Positions 14,405 through 25,541 of a stretch of DNA of 26,583 nt are shown here, one piece after another (within the stretch, counting starts at the first letter, position 1; the number at the start of each line of letters is the position of its first letter). The notes under the pieces were generated by a model. It had not been told where the DNA came from. It did not search any database and saw only the letters and a program-made list of their open reading frames with translations. The position numbers and the translations under genes were made by a program. The DNA lies in the IMG/VR virus record IMGVR_UViG_3300037225_001064, positions 1-26,583 of that record, one strand, 5' to 3'. This stretch comes from a virus.

Positions 14405-15286
14405 TTAATGAGTCGCGTTATGAGTTTTAACCGCACCATTGGAAACATAAATCACATAGTTTGAAAAATTGTCAACCGCTTTTACCTGAATTCTATTTGT
14501 CCTGTGAAGATTCAGAACATTTGTGTAATTCCAATGGGATAACTGTGTTGCATGAGTAAAATTCCCGATGGAATAAGCATTAGTATAAGATAAAAGCAGA
14601 ACATTGTTTGTCAACCATGTTGCTCTGGCGTTTACGGTATTGATTCTTACTCTTAAATTTGTACCAAGCGTATTGGTTCCAAGAATAAGATTTGCAGCAC
14701 CTGTATTTAAACGCACTCTAAGGTTCGTACCTAAAGTGTTTGTGCCAAGAATCAAATTGGCTGATCCGGTGTTTAATCGAATCCTAAGATTTGTCCCAAG
14801 AGTATTCGTAGCTACCATAAGCCTGTTAATATTAGTATTCAAACGAACCTTTGTATTATAGTTGGTTCCGTTCATACCGTTTGTCGCTGTAGCTATTTGC
14901 GCTGTAATGACATTATGAAACGCCTGGGTGTATGAAGTCATAACAAGATTTGACCAAGCTGAATTATTTCCCGGGAAAGAATTGATATAGTTTGTACCCA
15001 TGGTTTCAAAGATAAATTTCCAATTTGTGCTAACCTTTGGATGATTTATCTTTGCTTGATACATTCCAGGATAATAATTTGATTGTTTTACAGAAACAAA
15101 ATAAAAATCATTCTTATATGCATTAGTATATGCATATAATCCACTATGAGTGGTTACGACCGCTCTAATAACTCCATTAACTGCGGTCCAATCCACCAGA
15201 AGAGTGGTTGAAAATTTTTTATCTTTTCCTTCGGACATGGAGCACATCATGAAAAGAGACAATATAAGAATCAATAGTTTTTTCAT
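14405..15286 (-). CDS. Signal-peptide protein with 22-residue NTLGTNL repeats
   Basis: The 293-aa product starts with a signal peptide (MKKLLILILSLFMM, a Cys at residue 15 without a convincing lipobox). A beta-rich N-terminal domain follows (about 25-95, VIRAVVTTHSGLYAYTNAY and FYFVSVKQSNYYPGMYQAKI). Residues 148-213 form three 22-residue repeats (RLNT...NL...TNTLGTNLRV), each composed of two 11-residue halves sharing NT...NL, with a partial fourth. Eleven-residue periodicity suggests a coiled or solenoid rod. The C-terminus is beta/Asn-rich. It is the last gene of the head block and is followed by an intrinsic terminator. A secretory signal on a gene among capsid genes is unusual. It could encode a surface-exposed or periplasmic protein, or a virion fibre. 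Function unknown. Confidence 0.7.
   Translation of the reverse strand: MKKLLILILSLFMMCSMSEGKDKKFSTTLLVDWTAVNGVIRAVVTTHSGLYAYTNAYKNDFYFVSVKQSNYYPGMYQAKINHPKVSTNWKFIFETMGTNYINSFPGNNSAWSNLVMTSYTQAFHNVITAQIATATNGMNGTNYNTKVRLNTNINRLMVATNTLGTNLRIRLNTGSANLILGTNTLGTNLRVRLNTGAANLILGTNTLGTNLRVRINTVNARATWLTNNVLLLSYTNAYSIGNFTHATQLSHWNYTNVLNLHRTNRIQVKAVDNFSNYVIYVSNGAVKTHNATH
14648..14845 (-). repeat. Three tandem 66-bp coding repeats
   Basis: Three in-frame copies of a 66-bp unit encode the RLNT...TNTLGTNLRV repeats. The latter two are nearly identical at protein level and the first is more diverged, consistent with recent duplication of one unit. Confidence 0.75.
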
Positions 15287-19113: not shown

Positions 19114-19920
19114 TCATATCGAATATACTATATCACAATGGCAGGAAATAAGTTGAGAAGCCGGAGCATTAGGGTCATGCGGTGCCATCATTGGAGTAGT
19201 TCCAATTTGAAAGTTATTTCCACCTATTGAAACTATCAAAGGAACGTCAAAAACACTATCCATCGGCAAAGACTTTTCATTCATTGCCTTATGTCCAAGT
19301 CTAATATTTTTAATGTTCTTTGATAAATGAGGATTATGAATCCATGTTTTTTTAGGTATTATGCCGGGATTTTCAGCTCTAATTTGATCAGCAACATTCC
19401 TTTTTATATTTGCAATTGTTGTTCTAAGTTCAGTTACAGCTATTGCGTGTATATTTGAAGGCATACCAAAATCAGGATCTTTTCTGGTAAAACTACGCAT
19501 TGTATCCCTGACATCATCCTCAAATTCACGTTCCAGTTTTCCGTTTATTCTTTTTTTAAGATAAGTCTCTTCTTTATGGCGCCCTAAAAATGTATTTGCT
19601 TTTTCTCTTAATCTGTCCGTTAATGCCATTCTTAAATTATTAGATATCCCTTCTGTTTGTCCCCTGGACCTGGACCTAATATCTTCACTGGAAGGAACTA
19701 CATGTTCATATTCAGGAACTATATATTTTCTTTTTGTTTCAGAAAGAGTCTTGTTCCAATTCCTTATGCTTCTTTGAGCTATCTTAGGAGCCACATCTTC
19801 AATGTTTACATGAAATATTTCAGTAAGAATATTTCTGTATTCCTTTTTTTTTATCATTTCTTGAAACATCTCGTCCACATGATATTTTTTTCGAAGATAA
19901 TCAAGACTTTCTTTGGACAT
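19114..19920 (-). CDS. Mu gpF-like (MuF/SPP1 gp7) minor head protein
   Basis: The 268-aa protein ends with the MuF C-terminal signature: TELRTTIANIKRN (163-175) as the 'R/T-E-T' helix, a tryptophan strand KTWIHNPH (191-198), RLGHKAMN with His210, then APHDPNAPASQLISCHC (246-262). The PHDPNAP and C-H-C ends are hallmarks. The N-terminal half is helical and charged. MuF proteins sit inside or at the portal vertex of the procapsid, help assembly, and in some phages are ejected with DNA or carry toxin domains. No toxin domain is fused here. A good SD (AAGGA) precedes the ATG inside the end of the decarboxylase gene. It marks the start of the usual head order (MuF, protease, scaffold, capsid), although the portal that normally precedes it is not seen here. 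Confidence 0.85.
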   Translation of the reverse strand: MSKESLDYLRKKYHVDEMFQEMIKKKEYRNILTEIFHVNIEDVAPKIAQRSIRNWNKTLSETKRKYIVPEYEHVVPSSEDIRSRSRGQTEGISNNLRMALTDRLREKANTFLGRHKEETYLKKRINGKLEREFEDDVRDTMRSFTRKDPDFGMPSNIHAIAVTELRTTIANIKRNVADQIRAENPGIIPKKTWIHNPHLSKNIKNIRLGHKAMNEKSLPMDSVFDVPLIVSIGGNNFQIGTTPMMAPHDPNAPASQLISCHCDIVYSI

Positions 19921-20725
19921 CTTTTTCCTTTTTTATAAATCCATGCAATTCATTAAACGCCTTTAATAACAATTCTTGTTTGTTTTTCTCAACAGGAATT
20001 TCAACATGAGGAATTTTTGGTTTTATTTTTACAAGTTCATCTATTCCTCCGGTAACATGATAATAATTAGGAACAAGTAATTCATAATCAAACGGTGACG
20101 GCAAAGGCAGAACAAGACATATTTGACTTCCCCAACGAATTGTGGCAAGTCTTGAATTCTGAAGCATTGGTGTTCCTGATGGTTTAAAATGAGAAACAAC
20201 ATCTATTTCTTTATCCGCTATTGTAACTAAGTGATATTTATACCCATATTTATTTACAATAACAGTTTCAAGATATCTTTCATTAGAAAATGAATATTCC
20301 ATGTCATTAAAATCAATTATTCCTTTTAATATATCATTTTCTTCTGAAATCATCGGCCTGTTAGAAGTCTCAATCTTTTCAAGTTTTTTATATGTTACAT
20401 TGCCTCCCAAGGGTACTCGCGATACATGTACATCAAACTTTGAAAGAAATATTCCTATTACAAGAGCTCTTTGATTATATTCAGGATTTTGAAGCAAAGA
20501 TCTTAACGTGAAATTTTTCCCTTTGACTTCAATAATTTCTTCTTCCGGACCGACTTCTTTCTGGTATAATATTGTTCCATCACATGGGGAAAACAATACA
20601 GAGCTATCAATAAACTGACAACGAAGAGGATCCCGATGGAATGTATGTCCATAAAATTCCTCTGTGGGTATTTTTTTTAGTTCTTTAACTTCTGTATCAA
20701 TCCAATCCTTAAGTAAAATAGCCAT
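19901..20725 (-). CDS. psd: Phosphatidylserine decarboxylase-like pyruvoyl enzyme (short form)
   Basis: The 274-aa product carries the full motif series of short-form (PSD-A) phosphatidylserine decarboxylases: FHRDPLR (29-35), FSPCDGTIL (45-53, Asp49), KGKNFTL (68-74), FLSKFDVHVSRVPLGG (93-108, His100), SNERYLETVI (147-156) and, near the end, LATIRWGSQICLVLPLP (193-209). In this family the proenzyme cuts itself at Gly-Ser (here Gly199-Ser200), turning Ser into the pyruvoyl cofactor that decarboxylates phosphatidylserine to phosphatidylethanolamine. About 65 residues follow the core (helical, Lys/Glu-rich), more than the family normally has. There is no membrane segment. The SD is weak and the start overlaps the endonuclease stop. 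Its end overlaps the MuF gene by 20 bases. It is unusual among head genes. Lipid or non-lipid substrate cannot be decided. Confidence 0.85.
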   Translation of the reverse strand: MAILLKDWIDTEVKELKKIPTEEFYGHTFHRDPLRCQFIDSSVLFSPCDGTILYQKEVGPEEEIIEVKGKNFTLRSLLQNPEYNQRALVIGIFLSKFDVHVSRVPLGGNVTYKKLEKIETSNRPMISEENDILKGIIDFNDMEYSFSNERYLETVIVNKYGYKYHLVTIADKEIDVVSHFKPSGTPMLQNSRLATIRWGSQICLVLPLPSPFDYELLVPNYYHVTGGIDELVKIKPKIPHVEIPVEKNKQELLLKAFNELHGFIKKEKDVQRKS

Positions 20726-21399
20726 TAGGACACCCGCTTATTTTGCCATCTTATAATATTGGCCTGAGATATTTTTTTATTGTGTTCTTCTGTATGTAAT
20801 CGCCCCAATTTTGCCAGTCTCATTTTAATTTTCGATTCATCTTTATGATGTTTGCCATACATGGGATGATTCAATCCGGAATTGAATCCCCTCATTCCCT
20901 TGTTCCAAGGAACATGATTCAAAAGAGCTATTGAATTTGCTTTTCCTATTTTTTGTTTTGTTTGTTCGGACATAGTATAATGAGTGCCTAATTTAGCAAG
21001 TCTTAATTTCTCTATATGTTCTTTTGAAAATTTCATGCCCATTCTTGCTTGTGATTTCTTTAATCTTGTTTCATATGAATCGTGACGTCCTTTAGTTGAT
21101 GGAGGATTATCCCCTCCTTCGGACATGTTATATCCAGTTGGGAATCGAGTATCCAATAATTTTATAAAATCCCGTTCGAACTGTAAAAGCAAATCATTGT
21201 TGTTTGATTCTATCAAAATAGACCATTCAAAACCATCTAATCCATATTTTCTGATAGAATTAACAAAATAAGTATTTCTGTGTAATCGTTTGCTCGCATC
21301 ATATAAGTGTCCATTTTTACGTTTTTCTAATGAAGTAATGGTTTTACCGATATAGCACTTGCCATTAATTTTATTTTTCGCCTGATGGACGCATCCCAT
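20725..21399 (-). CDS. GIY-YIG homing endonuclease with NUMOD3 repeats
   Basis: The 224-aa protein has an N-terminal GIY-YIG nuclease domain (1-95) followed by DNA-binding NUMOD3-type repeats: MKFSKEHIEKLRLAKLG, TMSEQTKQKIGKAN, MYGKHHKDESKIKMRLAKLG and HTEEHNKKISQAN. Visible key residues are Tyr16 in YIG, Arg27, His31, His40, Glu75 and Asn91, close to the spacing in I-TevI. The first motif, normally GIY, reads GCVH, so the first conserved tyrosine is His5. These are selfish genes that cut and copy themselves into related genomes. This one is free-standing: the genes on both sides look complete. Its stop overlaps the next ATG (TAATG), so the downstream decarboxylase is probably translated by coupling. 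It has its own SD (AGAGGT). Confidence 0.88.
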   Translation of the reverse strand: MGCVHQAKNKINGKCYIGKTITSLEKRKNGHLYDASKRLHRNTYFVNSIRKYGLDGFEWSILIESNNNDLLLQFERDFIKLLDTRFPTGYNMSEGGDNPPSTKGRHDSYETRLKKSQARMGMKFSKEHIEKLRLAKLGTHYTMSEQTKQKIGKANSIALLNHVPWNKGMRGFNSGLNHPMYGKHHKDESKIKMRLAKLGRLHTEEHNKKISQANIIRWQNKRVS

Positions 21400-21429: not shown

Positions 21430-22839
21430 TTATCCTGCAAAGTCATGCCAATTCAAATGCATAACAAGACAAGATAACGAACTCCCAGAAACTCTGGAAG
21501 TTTCGCTCAAGTTCACGATGACAGGATCAAGATCAAGTTCAATTATTGTTCTTTCAAACCAATCAACCCGAGCTCTTTCATCAGCATAACTTTCATCAGT
21601 CTTTTGCATTCCTGTAATGTCACTTGCGTTCAAAATCATTTTTCCCGCTCTGACGCAGTTCGTGCTCCCTCCATATCCGAACAATTTGTTCACTGGAATT
21701 ATATTCGTGACTGCCTCTATTGCTTTCAGATCTTCTGGTGATATGATTTCTGTCATAACGAGACAGTTCTCTTTGTTCACTGGAAACAGAATGCAATCGA
21801 AGTGGTATTGCCTTTCGTCCGTCATTTTTACCTTGACAATTTGGATAGGGAATGTTTTTTCCATCCATTCGTATGCCTCCTTCTGCGACCTTATTCCATA
21901 ACCACCTATAAATTTATTTCCACCGATATATTTTAAATCAGCTTCACCTTCCCAGAAAAATGGAACTTGTATATCATTCCATTGATTCATTCCAAAAAAC
22001 TCACGTCCTACCTGTTCTTCACCAAGCCTGGGATCACTTCTAAAATTTGAAAGCAGTATTGTATCTCTTTGAATATGTTGAGGAAGAAATAATCCTAAAT
22101 TTGCCACATAAATTTCATCCTGAAGACCATCTTGAGAAGGCAATAAATAAACCCATCCAGCTTCATCAAGAATCCTCTTTAGGTCACCCCATTGAGTGTA
22201 TGCCTTTTCATAATTTATAGGTTCCTTTGCTTTAGGATTTTCCATCCACACATTGTTGGCTTTTTCATTATCAACATTAAATGGTGGACACATAAGAAAT
22301 GCAGGTATTTTTAATTCAGAAAAATGACTTGCTGATGGTTCAGTCTTTGCCTCTTTTATAGGCATCATTTCACGGACTTTTTTAATTTTAATTAAATTGT
22401 TTTCTATTGCCTTTAAAATAACAACAGAAGATTTTGAAGTATATCCAGCATCATGAGTCGCCGACCAGGCTATTTTAGAACACTTTTCTTTATCTCCCCC
22501 ATCGCGTCTGCATTTTGCATATACATTAGCAAGAATTTTTTTCCCGCTTTCAGGAAGATCTCCAGGTTCCGGGCTTTCATATCCACCAACTGTCATTGAT
22601 TTTGCCACTTGTTCAAGTTCAGGATAATATGTTTTTTCCATTTCTGCCATTTCTTCTTTTGCTATCATGTCTTTTATTATTTTAATTGATTTTTGAATCC
22701 CTGATTTTCTTTGATATGAACTAAACATGCCATAACATTGACCTGCTGCTTGTTCTTGTGTTTTTCCTTCTTTCATTAGTTCAGGAATACAGCGCGCAAC
22801 ATATTCTTGTTGTGTTTCTCCATCTTTTACTTTTGGCAT
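21430..22839 (-). CDS. Guanidino-modifying enzyme (amidinotransferase/DDAH superfamily) fused to phage-head-type N-terminal motifs
   Basis: I start this 469-aa protein at the ATG at 22839, because AGAGG lies nine bases before it. A GTG at 22869 would add ten residues. N-terminal motif one (YVARCIPELMKEGKTQEQA, about residues 13-31, then QCYGMF) is the Cys-containing helix seen in phage head and portal-region proteins. Motif two (about 98-133, ANVYAKCRRDGGDKEKCSKI then AWSATHDAGY) is ChaB-like. Residues about 180-465 match the amidinotransferase/dimethylargininase superfamily in order: LMCPPFN, DEIYVANLG (Asp241), the EGEAD motif (Glu297), GYGIRS, YHFDC (His346), and SGSSLSCLVM (Cys457). The Glu/His/Cys catalytic set is complete, so it is probably active on a guanidino group (arginine or a methylated/modified arginine, hydrolysis or amidino transfer). 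The substrate is unknown. The fusion to head-type motifs suggests contact with the virion or its assembly. Confidence 0.82.
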   Translation of the reverse strand: MPKVKDGETQQEYVARCIPELMKEGKTQEQAAGQCYGMFSSYQRKSGIQKSIKIIKDMIAKEEMAEMEKTYYPELEQVAKSMTVGGYESPEPGDLPESGKKILANVYAKCRRDGGDKEKCSKIAWSATHDAGYTSKSSVVILKAIENNLIKIKKVREMMPIKEAKTEPSASHFSELKIPAFLMCPPFNVDNEKANNVWMENPKAKEPINYEKAYTQWGDLKRILDEAGWVYLLPSQDGLQDEIYVANLGLFLPQHIQRDTILLSNFRSDPRLGEEQVGREFFGMNQWNDIQVPFFWEGEADLKYIGGNKFIGGYGIRSQKEAYEWMEKTFPIQIVKVKMTDERQYHFDCILFPVNKENCLVMTEIISPEDLKAIEAVTNIIPVNKLFGYGGSTNCVRAGKMILNASDITGMQKTDESYADERARVDWFERTIIELDLDPVIVNLSETSRVSGSSLSCLVMHLNWHDFAG

Positions 22840-23108
22840 GGTTCTATACCTCTTAATCTGTTTGAGCACTCAACTTTCAAAATCATTAATGTTTTTAACA
22901 GCGCTTTCTTGCTGATATTCCTTAATTTGTTTTCATATTCTCTATCGATTACTGCAGGACTTTTGTTTATTTGTCCTGCAGTATTGACAATGTTTTTAAT
23001 CAGTTCCTTTTTACCCATGTATTTATATTCATCAAGCATGTCGCCAAAGGTTCTGATTTTCCAACCTTTGAATATTTTATTTAACCAGATTCCTAACTTT
23101 GAAATCAT
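22827..23108 (-). CDS. Hypothetical basic protein, 93 aa
   Basis: This small Lys-rich protein has no membrane segment. It has an amphipathic N-terminus (LGIWLNKIFKGWKIRTFGDML), then mostly helical sequence. It starts in an ATGA overlap with the hydrolase before it, and its 3' end overlaps the start of the large fused enzyme after it by 13 bases. I recognise no family. Position and coupling suggest it is translated together with the lysis-like cluster. Confidence 0.6.
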   Translation of the reverse strand: MISKLGIWLNKIFKGWKIRTFGDMLDEYKYMGKKELIKNIVNTAGQINKSPAVIDREYENKLRNISKKALLKTLMILKVECSNRLRGIEPCQK

Positions 23109-24383: not shown

Positions 24384-25541
24384 TTACTTTAATTTTACCT
24401 TATAAACAAGATTTCCACCAGTGCTTCCTGCTATCGAAGCCCTCTTAAACCTTACCCATCTCACATTTGTCGATGTAGGTTGAACTGTTTTATAATCTGA
24501 TGAATACCATCCTTGATCTGGATTCTTATTCGTTGACCACTGGTTTGTCCATCCTGCCGGGGAACTTGATGAGTTTGTGACAAACTTAAATTTCCTGTTG
24601 ATATAGTCTTCTATGACGATGTGCGTTGTCGCTCTCTTATAATTTGTATAGTGAATCGTATGGGTTATCATAGATGTTTTGAATCTAAACGTATTAGTAA
24701 CAAATATTGAAGGAGGACTCCATTCCAGCCATCCCATATCCACTCTTCCGTTTCCACTTGGAATAGGAACTGAATCTGTCGGGTCACCAGCATCTATACA
24801 AGGACTTGTGTTTCCTAAATAAAGAAAATTAGGCAAAAATGTATAATCATAGGAAGCTAAAATAGGATTGTTTGATATGCTTCCTGTTCCAGGAGACATA
24901 TTAGAATAATTTAGTACATTTCCAAAAGTATCATTATAAGTAGATGATATTACAGTTCCTTGTCTTGCATTTACTCCTTGACTGTTTCCATAAAAAATAT
25001 TATTTCTTAATCTATAACTTATTCTTGCTGTTCCTGTGCTGTAAAAACCTTTAAAGTTTGACACAAAAGTATTATGTAATGCTCTCATTCTTCTGCTTTT
25101 TAAATGAAGCCCTCTATGGTTTGAATAAATAGTACAACCGACAACTCGTACGTTTGTTGCACCATCTATAACAGTTATTCCAAAGTTTGATTGTCTTGCA
25201 AAATTAACGTTTGAAATAATTATCGCAAAAGCATTGGTAATAACTATTCCATTTTTTCTTCCTCTTAAAACAGCGCGTTTTGTATTAGTAAGAGATGTCA
25301 AAATCATAAATGTAGGTGAATTTTTATTAGATTTTATATAGACATTCTGTGTATAGACTCCCGGCCCTATATACAAAATAGGAACAGACTGAATTGCCGA
25401 TACCACATTCACTCCCCTTTGTATATTCTTAAAAGGAGAGGCAAATGTTCCAGAGTTGGCATCAGAACCGTTTGTTGATACATAAAATTGTGCTGAAAGA
25501 AATATAGGAAATAATGTTAAAACAATAATTATTCGCTTCAT
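24384..25541 (-). CDS. Secreted right-handed beta-helix protein with DUF11-like C-terminus
   Basis: The 385-aa product begins with a clear signal peptide (KR, hydrophobic core, cut near LSAQ-F at about residue 18). It continues with YVSTNGSDANSGTFASPFKN, the usual opening of DUF1565/pectate-lyase-like beta-helix proteins. Residues about 55-235 show parallel beta-helix rungs with recurring NNIF, NVNF and GITV patterns. Residues about 250-275 (CIDAGDPTD, GRVDMGWLEW) match the end motif of secreted bacterial beta-helix proteins. The last 100 residues resemble a DUF11 repeat (THTIHYTNY, VIEDYINRKFKF). Such folds bind or cut polysaccharides, but no catalytic residues are identifiable. A Sec signal on a gene beside phage virion genes is odd. 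It may be a depolymerase, a cell-surface protein expressed from a prophage, or an acquired host gene. Confidence 0.8.
   Translation of the reverse strand: MKRIIIVLTLFPIFLSAQFYVSTNGSDANSGTFASPFKNIQRGVNVVSAIQSVPILYIGPGVYTQNVYIKSNKNSPTFMILTSLTNTKRAVLRGRKNGIVITNAFAIIISNVNFARQSNFGITVIDGATNVRVVGCTIYSNHRGLHLKSRRMRALHNTFVSNFKGFYSTGTARISYRLRNNIFYGNSQGVNARQGTVISSTYNDTFGNVLNYSNMSPGTGSISNNPILASYDYTFLPNFLYLGNTSPCIDAGDPTDSVPIPSGNGRVDMGWLEWSPPSIFVTNTFRFKTSMITHTIHYTNYKRATTHIVIEDYINRKFKFVTNSSSSPAGWTNQWSTNKNPDQGWYSSDYKTVQPTSTNVRWVRFKRASIAGSTGGNLVYKVKLK

Follow-up and report, generated by a model that had tools for sequence, protein, structure and literature searches.

An arginine-dihydrolase-like enzyme and a phosphatidylserine-decarboxylase-like protein paired in phage genomes: a possible route from arginine to putrescine

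Introduction

Two families of phage proteins listed as being of unknown function, phrog_12759 and phrog_12670, constitute one conserved unit, which has been found in at least 158 and at least 233 viral contigs, respectively, and which is usually located next to the major capsid gene in the loci examined. The first family comprises an arginine-dihydrolase-like enzyme and the second a phosphatidylserine-decarboxylase-like (PSD-like) protein. The pair is conserved in many uncultivated phages, among their capsid genes, and apparently undescribed so far, as no published description of it was found in the open-licence literature. With a probability of about one half, the two genes form a cassette that would convert arginine to ornithine and this to putrescine, a DNA-condensing polyamine; its synthesis would be late, next to the capsid genes, and would serve DNA packaging or host takeover. 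The pair would thus represent phage-encoded amino-acid and polyamine metabolism, a kind that is already known.

The DNA analysed here, called the window, is an IMG/VR record of 26,583 bases in which the enzyme is fused to a head-region protein. The original prediction made from this DNA had described a guanidino-group enzyme joined to a head-region domain, and that description holds; the fusion, however, is not the functional unit, and the conserved PSD-like partner had been missed.

The fused gene and its catalytic residues

The frame from 21430 to 22869 (minus strand) is open and encodes 479 residues from a GTG start or 469 residues from the ATG at 22839. A Shine-Dalgarno-like AAGAGGT precedes this ATG, so the 469-residue form is the likely protein; residue numbers of the fused protein refer to it. 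The following features have been located in the window:

21430..22839, minus strand: fused gene, head-region protein plus arginine-dihydrolase-like enzyme, 469 residues (open frame, Shine-Dalgarno-like AAGAGGT, relatives)
22369..22839, minus strand: residues 1-157, head-region domain with two motifs, the second ChaB-like (stand-alone homologues)
21433..22368, minus strand: residues 158-469, ArgZ/AgrE-type catalytic domain (phrog_12759, E 1.2e-47; ArgZ/AgrE in the PDB; fold)
22099..22119, minus strand: Asp241 to Asn247 (DEIYVAN), matching ArgZ D65 to N71 (alignment; 41/41)
21949..21951, minus strand: Glu297 codon, matching ArgZ E118 (alignment; invariant, 41/41)
21802..21804, minus strand: His346 codon, matching ArgZ H168 (alignment; invariant, 41/41)
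21469..21471, minus strand: Cys457 codon, putative nucleophile, matching ArgZ C264 (alignment; invariant, 41/41)

Asp241, Glu297, His346 and Cys457 lie where the original prediction had placed them, and they are identical in all 41 non-redundant relatives of the enzyme, as are Asn247, Arg271, Arg317, Asp348 and Asn394.

Closest relatives of the enzyme

By sequence and modelled fold, the closest characterised relative of the enzyme is the arginine dihydrolase ArgZ/AgrE, which is clearly nearer to it than dimethylargininase or the amidinotransferases. A sequence search with the enzyme matches ArgZ/AgrE in the PDB at E 1.9e-19; together with the phrog_12759 match and the complete conservation of the catalytic residues in the 41 relatives, this excludes chance. 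With a profile built from 38 relatives, the match to Anabaena AgrE (E 2.5e-47) and Synechocystis ArgZ (E 2.6e-46) spans the whole N-terminal catalytic domain (profile 15-297 against chain 7-270), whereas dimethylargininase is reached only at E ~4e-5. When the AlphaFold model of the fused protein is compared with known folds, ArgZ structures are the top match (E 2.3e-19, TM 0.86 by target), followed by human and bacterial dimethylargininase (DDAH, E ~1e-11) and then by amidinotransferases. AGAT is far below ArgZ in this comparison (rank 41, E 2.3e-8). On this rank and the lack of a Pfam match to PF02274, an amidinotransferase of the AGAT type is rejected.

The enzyme falls below the equivalog cut-offs of NCBIfam both for arginine dihydrolase (NF052232, E 2.4e-22, 79.5 bits against 450) and for dimethylargininase (NF045659, E 1.8e-23, 83.1 bits against 300), and for this reason it is named here ArgZ-like, or dihydrolase-like, and not ArgZ. 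The guanidino-modifying superfamily proposed originally is borne out by these profiles, by the AgrE/ArgZ match and by the modelled fold. Within it, the proposed amidinotransferase or dimethylargininase type gives way to ArgZ/AgrE, and PF02274, which had been suggested as a check on the enzyme, yielded nothing in Pfam.

Asp241, Asn247, Arg271 and Glu297 align with D65, N71, R90 and E118 of ArgZ/AgrE, and Arg317, His346, Asp348 and Cys457 with R139, H168, D170 and C264. The titles of the PDB entries identify C264 and N71 of ArgZ as the residues mutated to trap the substrate or the intermediate. The conserved set includes the residues of the arginine pocket. We take the other aligned residues of ArgZ to hold arginine, R90 and R139 presumably gripping its carboxylate. 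In the proposed reaction, Cys457, with Asp241, Asn247, Glu297 and His346, would remove the guanidino carbon from free L-arginine to give ornithine, CO2 and two NH3. The targets considered at first were arginines of proteins or a small molecule derived from arginine; the PSD-like partner and the conserved pocket residues favour a free amino acid as the substrate, and the small-molecule option is the better one.

The head-region domain and the origin of the fusion

The N-terminal part of the fused protein is a whole head-region protein, which is encoded alone in relatives of this phage, just before the MuF gene. Single-protein scans with the MuF and the protease of the window found no relatives, and the N-terminal 148 residues gave no match among phages and only two weak ones among plasmids. 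The relatives of the head region (10 loci) came from a two-sequence alignment of the protease. These 10 viral contigs have the MuF, protease, scaffold-like and capsid genes in common with the window, and both the enzyme and the PSD-like partner are absent from all of them. Two genes of the window flank the fused gene and its cassette:

19114..19920, minus strand: MuF-like head morphogenesis protein, encoded immediately after the cassette on its downstream side (phrog_2468, E 1.2e-11)
22827..23108, minus strand: small upstream gene, kept in the head-region relatives L105, L107, L108 and L110

A stand-alone homologue of 185 residues is encoded at the same place in contig L106 (1162-1716), with about 40% identity, and aligns with residues 1-152 of the window protein. 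Further homologues are present in L105, L112 and L002. The one in L105 is a larger protein that has its first and last parts in common with the domain (LKAIETNL against LKAIENNL in the window). The one in L002 ends in NAGY and a stop codon, and the ATG of the MuF gene comes at once after it, without any cassette. These homologues, above all those of L106 and L002, agree with the head-region character originally read from two N-terminal motifs. The same cannot be said of the ChaB assignment: the match to PF06150 (E 0.15, 13.2 bits against a gathering score of 27) is below the threshold, so membership is rejected and 'ChaB-like' denotes a weak resemblance. This second motif is also present near the start of an 845-residue prohead-protease-like protein (L001, 7809-10346), and head genes therefore seem to exchange it by shuffling.

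The homology with the head protein stops near residue 157, where two ATG codons (MM, 158-159) are followed by the enzyme; they probably represent the old start codon of the latter. In the AlphaFold model the joint (158-169) is a linker with pLDDT below 50. The other relatives of the enzyme that were examined are stand-alone proteins of about 300 to 360 residues, so the fusion, seen in the window alone, is local. With its joint at the probable old start codon and its very-low-confidence linker, it looks like a by-product of the insertion of the cassette. On the simplest reading, the two enzyme genes and a homing endonuclease gene would have entered at the 3' end of the head-region gene, and the first enzyme was probably fused when the intervening stop codon was lost.

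A tether of the enzyme to the procapsid, as suggested in the original prediction, has consequently been rejected as a property of the family, since the relatives are stand-alone and the 10 head-region relatives have no enzyme. A tether belongs to the idea that the enzyme converts arginines of capsid or host proteins into ornithine or citrulline, held in place by its N-terminal part. The gene lies among head genes in the window and beside gp23 in T4-like contigs, which fits such protein modification, as does the fusion itself. The fusion is nevertheless confined to the window, the residues of the free-arginine pocket of ArgZ are retained, and the strictly paired small decarboxylase would have no role in it, which makes it highly improbable.

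The PSD-like partner and the genes around the pair

Two genes downstream of the fused gene stands the PSD-like gene, which the MuF-like gene overlaps by 20 nt:

19901..20725, minus strand: phosphatidylserine-decarboxylase-like (pyruvoyl) protein, the partner (PF02666, E 6e-19; phrog_12670; adjacency)
20126..20131, minus strand: Gly199-Ser200, predicted self-cleavage site making the pyruvoyl group (GS invariant, 35/35)
20725..21399, minus strand: GIY-YIG homing endonuclease gene between the two enzyme genes (PF01541, E 5.3e-8; NUMOD3, E 6.8e-11; phrog_314, E 5.7e-33)

The protein belongs to the Pfam family PF02666 (68.9 bits, gathering score 22). Asp49, His100, Gly199 and Ser200 are kept in 35 of 35 relatives, and self-cleavage to a pyruvoyl enzyme is therefore expected; it would take place at Gly199-Ser200. 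Foldseek found no significant match for the model of this protein, although solved PSD chains are cleaved at Gly-Ser, which may hinder a match.

One alternative is lipid remodelling, in which the PSD-like protein would make phosphatidylethanolamine from host phosphatidylserine while the guanidino enzyme modified a lipid head group or acted separately. Solved PSD structures are indeed matched by sequence (2e-11), Pfam membership is clear, and Campylobacter phages carry the gene under the name phosphatidylserine decarboxylase, the other half being annotated separately as amidinotransferase. On the other hand, the protein is below the cut-offs of all NCBIfam PSD equivalog models, and its gene is strictly paired with the arginine enzyme. 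In each of eight phage genomes there is a single PSD-like gene, and a CDP-alcohol phosphatidyltransferase (PF01066) is absent; the Saprospiraceae genome that carries the pair encodes, at another place, a further PSD homologue with a weaker match. Lipid remodelling is accordingly quite improbable. The PSD family is not confined to lipids: PsiD is an amino-acid decarboxylase that acts on tryptophan (PMC12603985).

GIY-YIG or Hef-like homing endonuclease genes recur inside or beside the pair in several phage lineages. In addition to the gene in the window (20725-21399), they have been located in L045 (1919-2665), where the insertion point is the same, and in L061 (5628-6626), L104 (6233-6922), L017 and L019 (9595-10170), L057 (9620-10153), L007 (6731-8185) and L004 (9808-11328). 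Homing endonucleases may spread the enzyme cassette.

Two other genes of the window are unusual within a head and tail region, as their products look secreted or surface-acting: a right-handed beta-helix protein (24384-25541; PF13229, E 4.5e-7) and an Asn/Thr-rich repeat protein (14405-15286), both with a signal-peptide-like N-terminus.

Conservation of the pair across genomes

The association of the two genes was examined from both sides. An IMG/VR scan with an alignment of three enzymes gave at least 158 relatives. Among the best 80 of 158, which represent 32 sequences at 90% identity and whose counts come mostly from one group of related T4-like contigs, the PSD-like gene is directly 3' of the enzyme in 75 of the 77 viral loci with room for it, and the two genes overlap by 1 nt in 61 loci. 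In the two exceptions (L045 and L061) the enzyme is immediately followed by a GIY-YIG gene, which is also the arrangement in the window. An alignment search with the PSD-like protein gave at least 233 relatives, and in the best 80 of 233 the enzyme is directly upstream in every locus with room (74/74). The identity matrices of the two proteins correlate with r 0.96; over eight separate lineages the correlation is 0.70, and a value as high was reached in 47 of 5000 permutations. The pairing recovered from both baits and the correlated matrices are strong evidence that the enzyme and the PSD-like protein are one functional unit.

In T4-like contigs the gene order is prohead protease, scaffold-like gene, gp23 capsid, enzyme, PSD-like gene and PhoH, with gp23 upstream of the pair in 69 of 71 cases and phoH after the PSD-like gene in 65 of 66. 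The two genes are likewise neighbours in Bacteroides phage DAC19 (genes 243-244), in L100 and in the Saprospiraceae contig L103. Two bacterial MAGs have the pair, the Saprospiraceae one and one from Verrucomicrobia, in which the genes are adjacent but in the opposite order. A distance of about 43 kb separates them in Campylobacter phage NCTC12673; among the matches listed, all 38 Campylobacter records found with the enzyme are also in the PSD-like list. In both the Campylobacter and the Bacteroides phages the pair lies outside the capsid operon.

Some other neighbours have been observed. In L103 (5983-8874) a MATE-type-transporter-like gene, for which NCBIfam has no match at 1e-5, follows the pair, and in NCTC12673 (L007, 5694-5990) the PSD-like gene comes directly after a GroES-like co-chaperonin gene. 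Agmatine-deiminase-family genes lie beside or near the ArgZ-like gene in L101 (6335-7153) and L104 (6922-7761), which are phage-like contigs binned in MAGs.

The proposed pathway and its alternatives

In the pathway favoured here, ornithine produced by the ArgZ-like enzyme would be decarboxylated to putrescine by the pyruvoyl PSD-like partner. This is the economical reading, and it has parallels in AgrE, where a step that consumes ornithine is coupled to arginine dihydrolysis, in the amino-acid decarboxylase PsiD and in the pyruvoyl decarboxylases already known from phages. The location with capsid genes suggests that polyamine synthesis would be late, during DNA packaging, and putrescine could act as a counter-ion for the packaged genome, support host translation, or both. 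Several observations speak against the pathway. SpeD and SpeE are absent from the eight phage genomes, which would limit the product to putrescine. SpeA-like and AguB-like genes, which are homologues of a standard putrescine route, occur in both bacterial MAGs that have the pair; the usual route is thus not lacking, and the pair is no obvious replacement there. The score of the PSD-like protein below the PSD equivalog cut-offs and the position outside the capsid operon in Campylobacter and Bacteroides phages also count against it.

The same product could be reached in the other order, the PSD-like protein making agmatine from arginine and the ArgZ-like enzyme dihydrolysing agmatine to putrescine. 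The equivalents of R90 and R139 of ArgZ, the presumed holders of the carboxylate, are invariant, yet agmatine has no carboxylate, and this order must be regarded as unlikely. In its favour, an agmatine-deiminase-family gene (PF04371, E 9e-28) lies between the two genes in L101, and phages do encode pyruvoyl enzymes that decarboxylate arginine (PMC9992855).

It has also been considered that the pair acts on the virion, its ornithine or putrescine chemistry being directed at phage DNA or at capsid arginines, with a PSD-fold enzyme that has a new amino-acid-type substrate and a role in capsid maturation; this is rather unlikely. A related proposal is that the bases of phage DNA bear an adduct of the ornithine or putrescine type, which the pair would supply or complete. 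Putrescinyl-thymine DNA exists in phage phiW-14, and thymidylate-synthase-family genes occur in five of the eight phage genomes. Thymidylate synthase is, however, common in phages, none was found in the Campylobacter or the Bacteroides phage, and Campylobacter phage DNA has been reported to carry 7-deazaguanine modification instead (PMC6884629). Such hypermodification is thus very unlikely.

Finally, the pair could scavenge nitrogen, releasing two ammonia per arginine, or remove host arginine, with the PSD-like protein as a disposal step. The key role of AgrE when cyanobacteria break down arginine (PMC8262935) fits this, but scavenging leaves both the conserved decarboxylase and the location in the capsid operon unexplained and is considered improbable.

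If the arginine-to-putrescine pathway is true, it would add another way for phages to obtain putrescine, one that involves neither urea nor PLP, as well as a new substrate for the PSD fold and a link between polyamine supply and the block of capsid genes. Surveys in which viral genes of this sort are interpreted as lipid or creatine metabolism would then have to be re-examined. A marine survey discusses viral psd apart from the genes of the creatine pathway, as a different pathway (PMC11360552).

Comparison with known systems

AgrE takes the guanidino group off arginine with ornithine as an intermediate, releasing CO2 and ammonium; in it the arginine dihydrolase is joined to a second enzyme that consumes ornithine (PMC8262935). 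The phage enzyme resembles ArgZ/AgrE (Synechocystis Sll1336, Anabaena Alr4995) over the whole catalytic domain and in its fold, and the equivalents of eight active-site residues are invariant. It differs in having no fused ornithine cyclodeaminase, in a pairwise identity of about 23%, in its fusion here to a head-region domain and in its score below the NCBIfam arginine-dihydrolase cut-off. Dimethylargininase has the superfamily and the catalytic triad in common with the phage enzyme, but solved DDAH structures are far weaker matches than ArgZ by profile and by fold.

With regard to the second step, phages carry SpeD-derived pyruvoyl decarboxylases for ornithine and arginine, which have another fold (PMC9992855). 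They are comparable in the proposed reaction and purpose, and they are also small pyruvoyl enzymes in phage genomes; in contrast, they belong to the SpeD family and not to PSD, they have no dihydrolase partner, and that paper makes no mention of PSD or of a dihydrolase. The nearest known counterparts of the pair as a whole are the 'amidinotransferase' and 'phosphatidylserine decarboxylase' of Campylobacter Fletchervirus phages and genes 243-244 of DAC19, which are homologues of both halves (phrog_12759 and phrog_12670), although the enzyme is stand-alone in these phages and the two genes are unlinked in those of Campylobacter.
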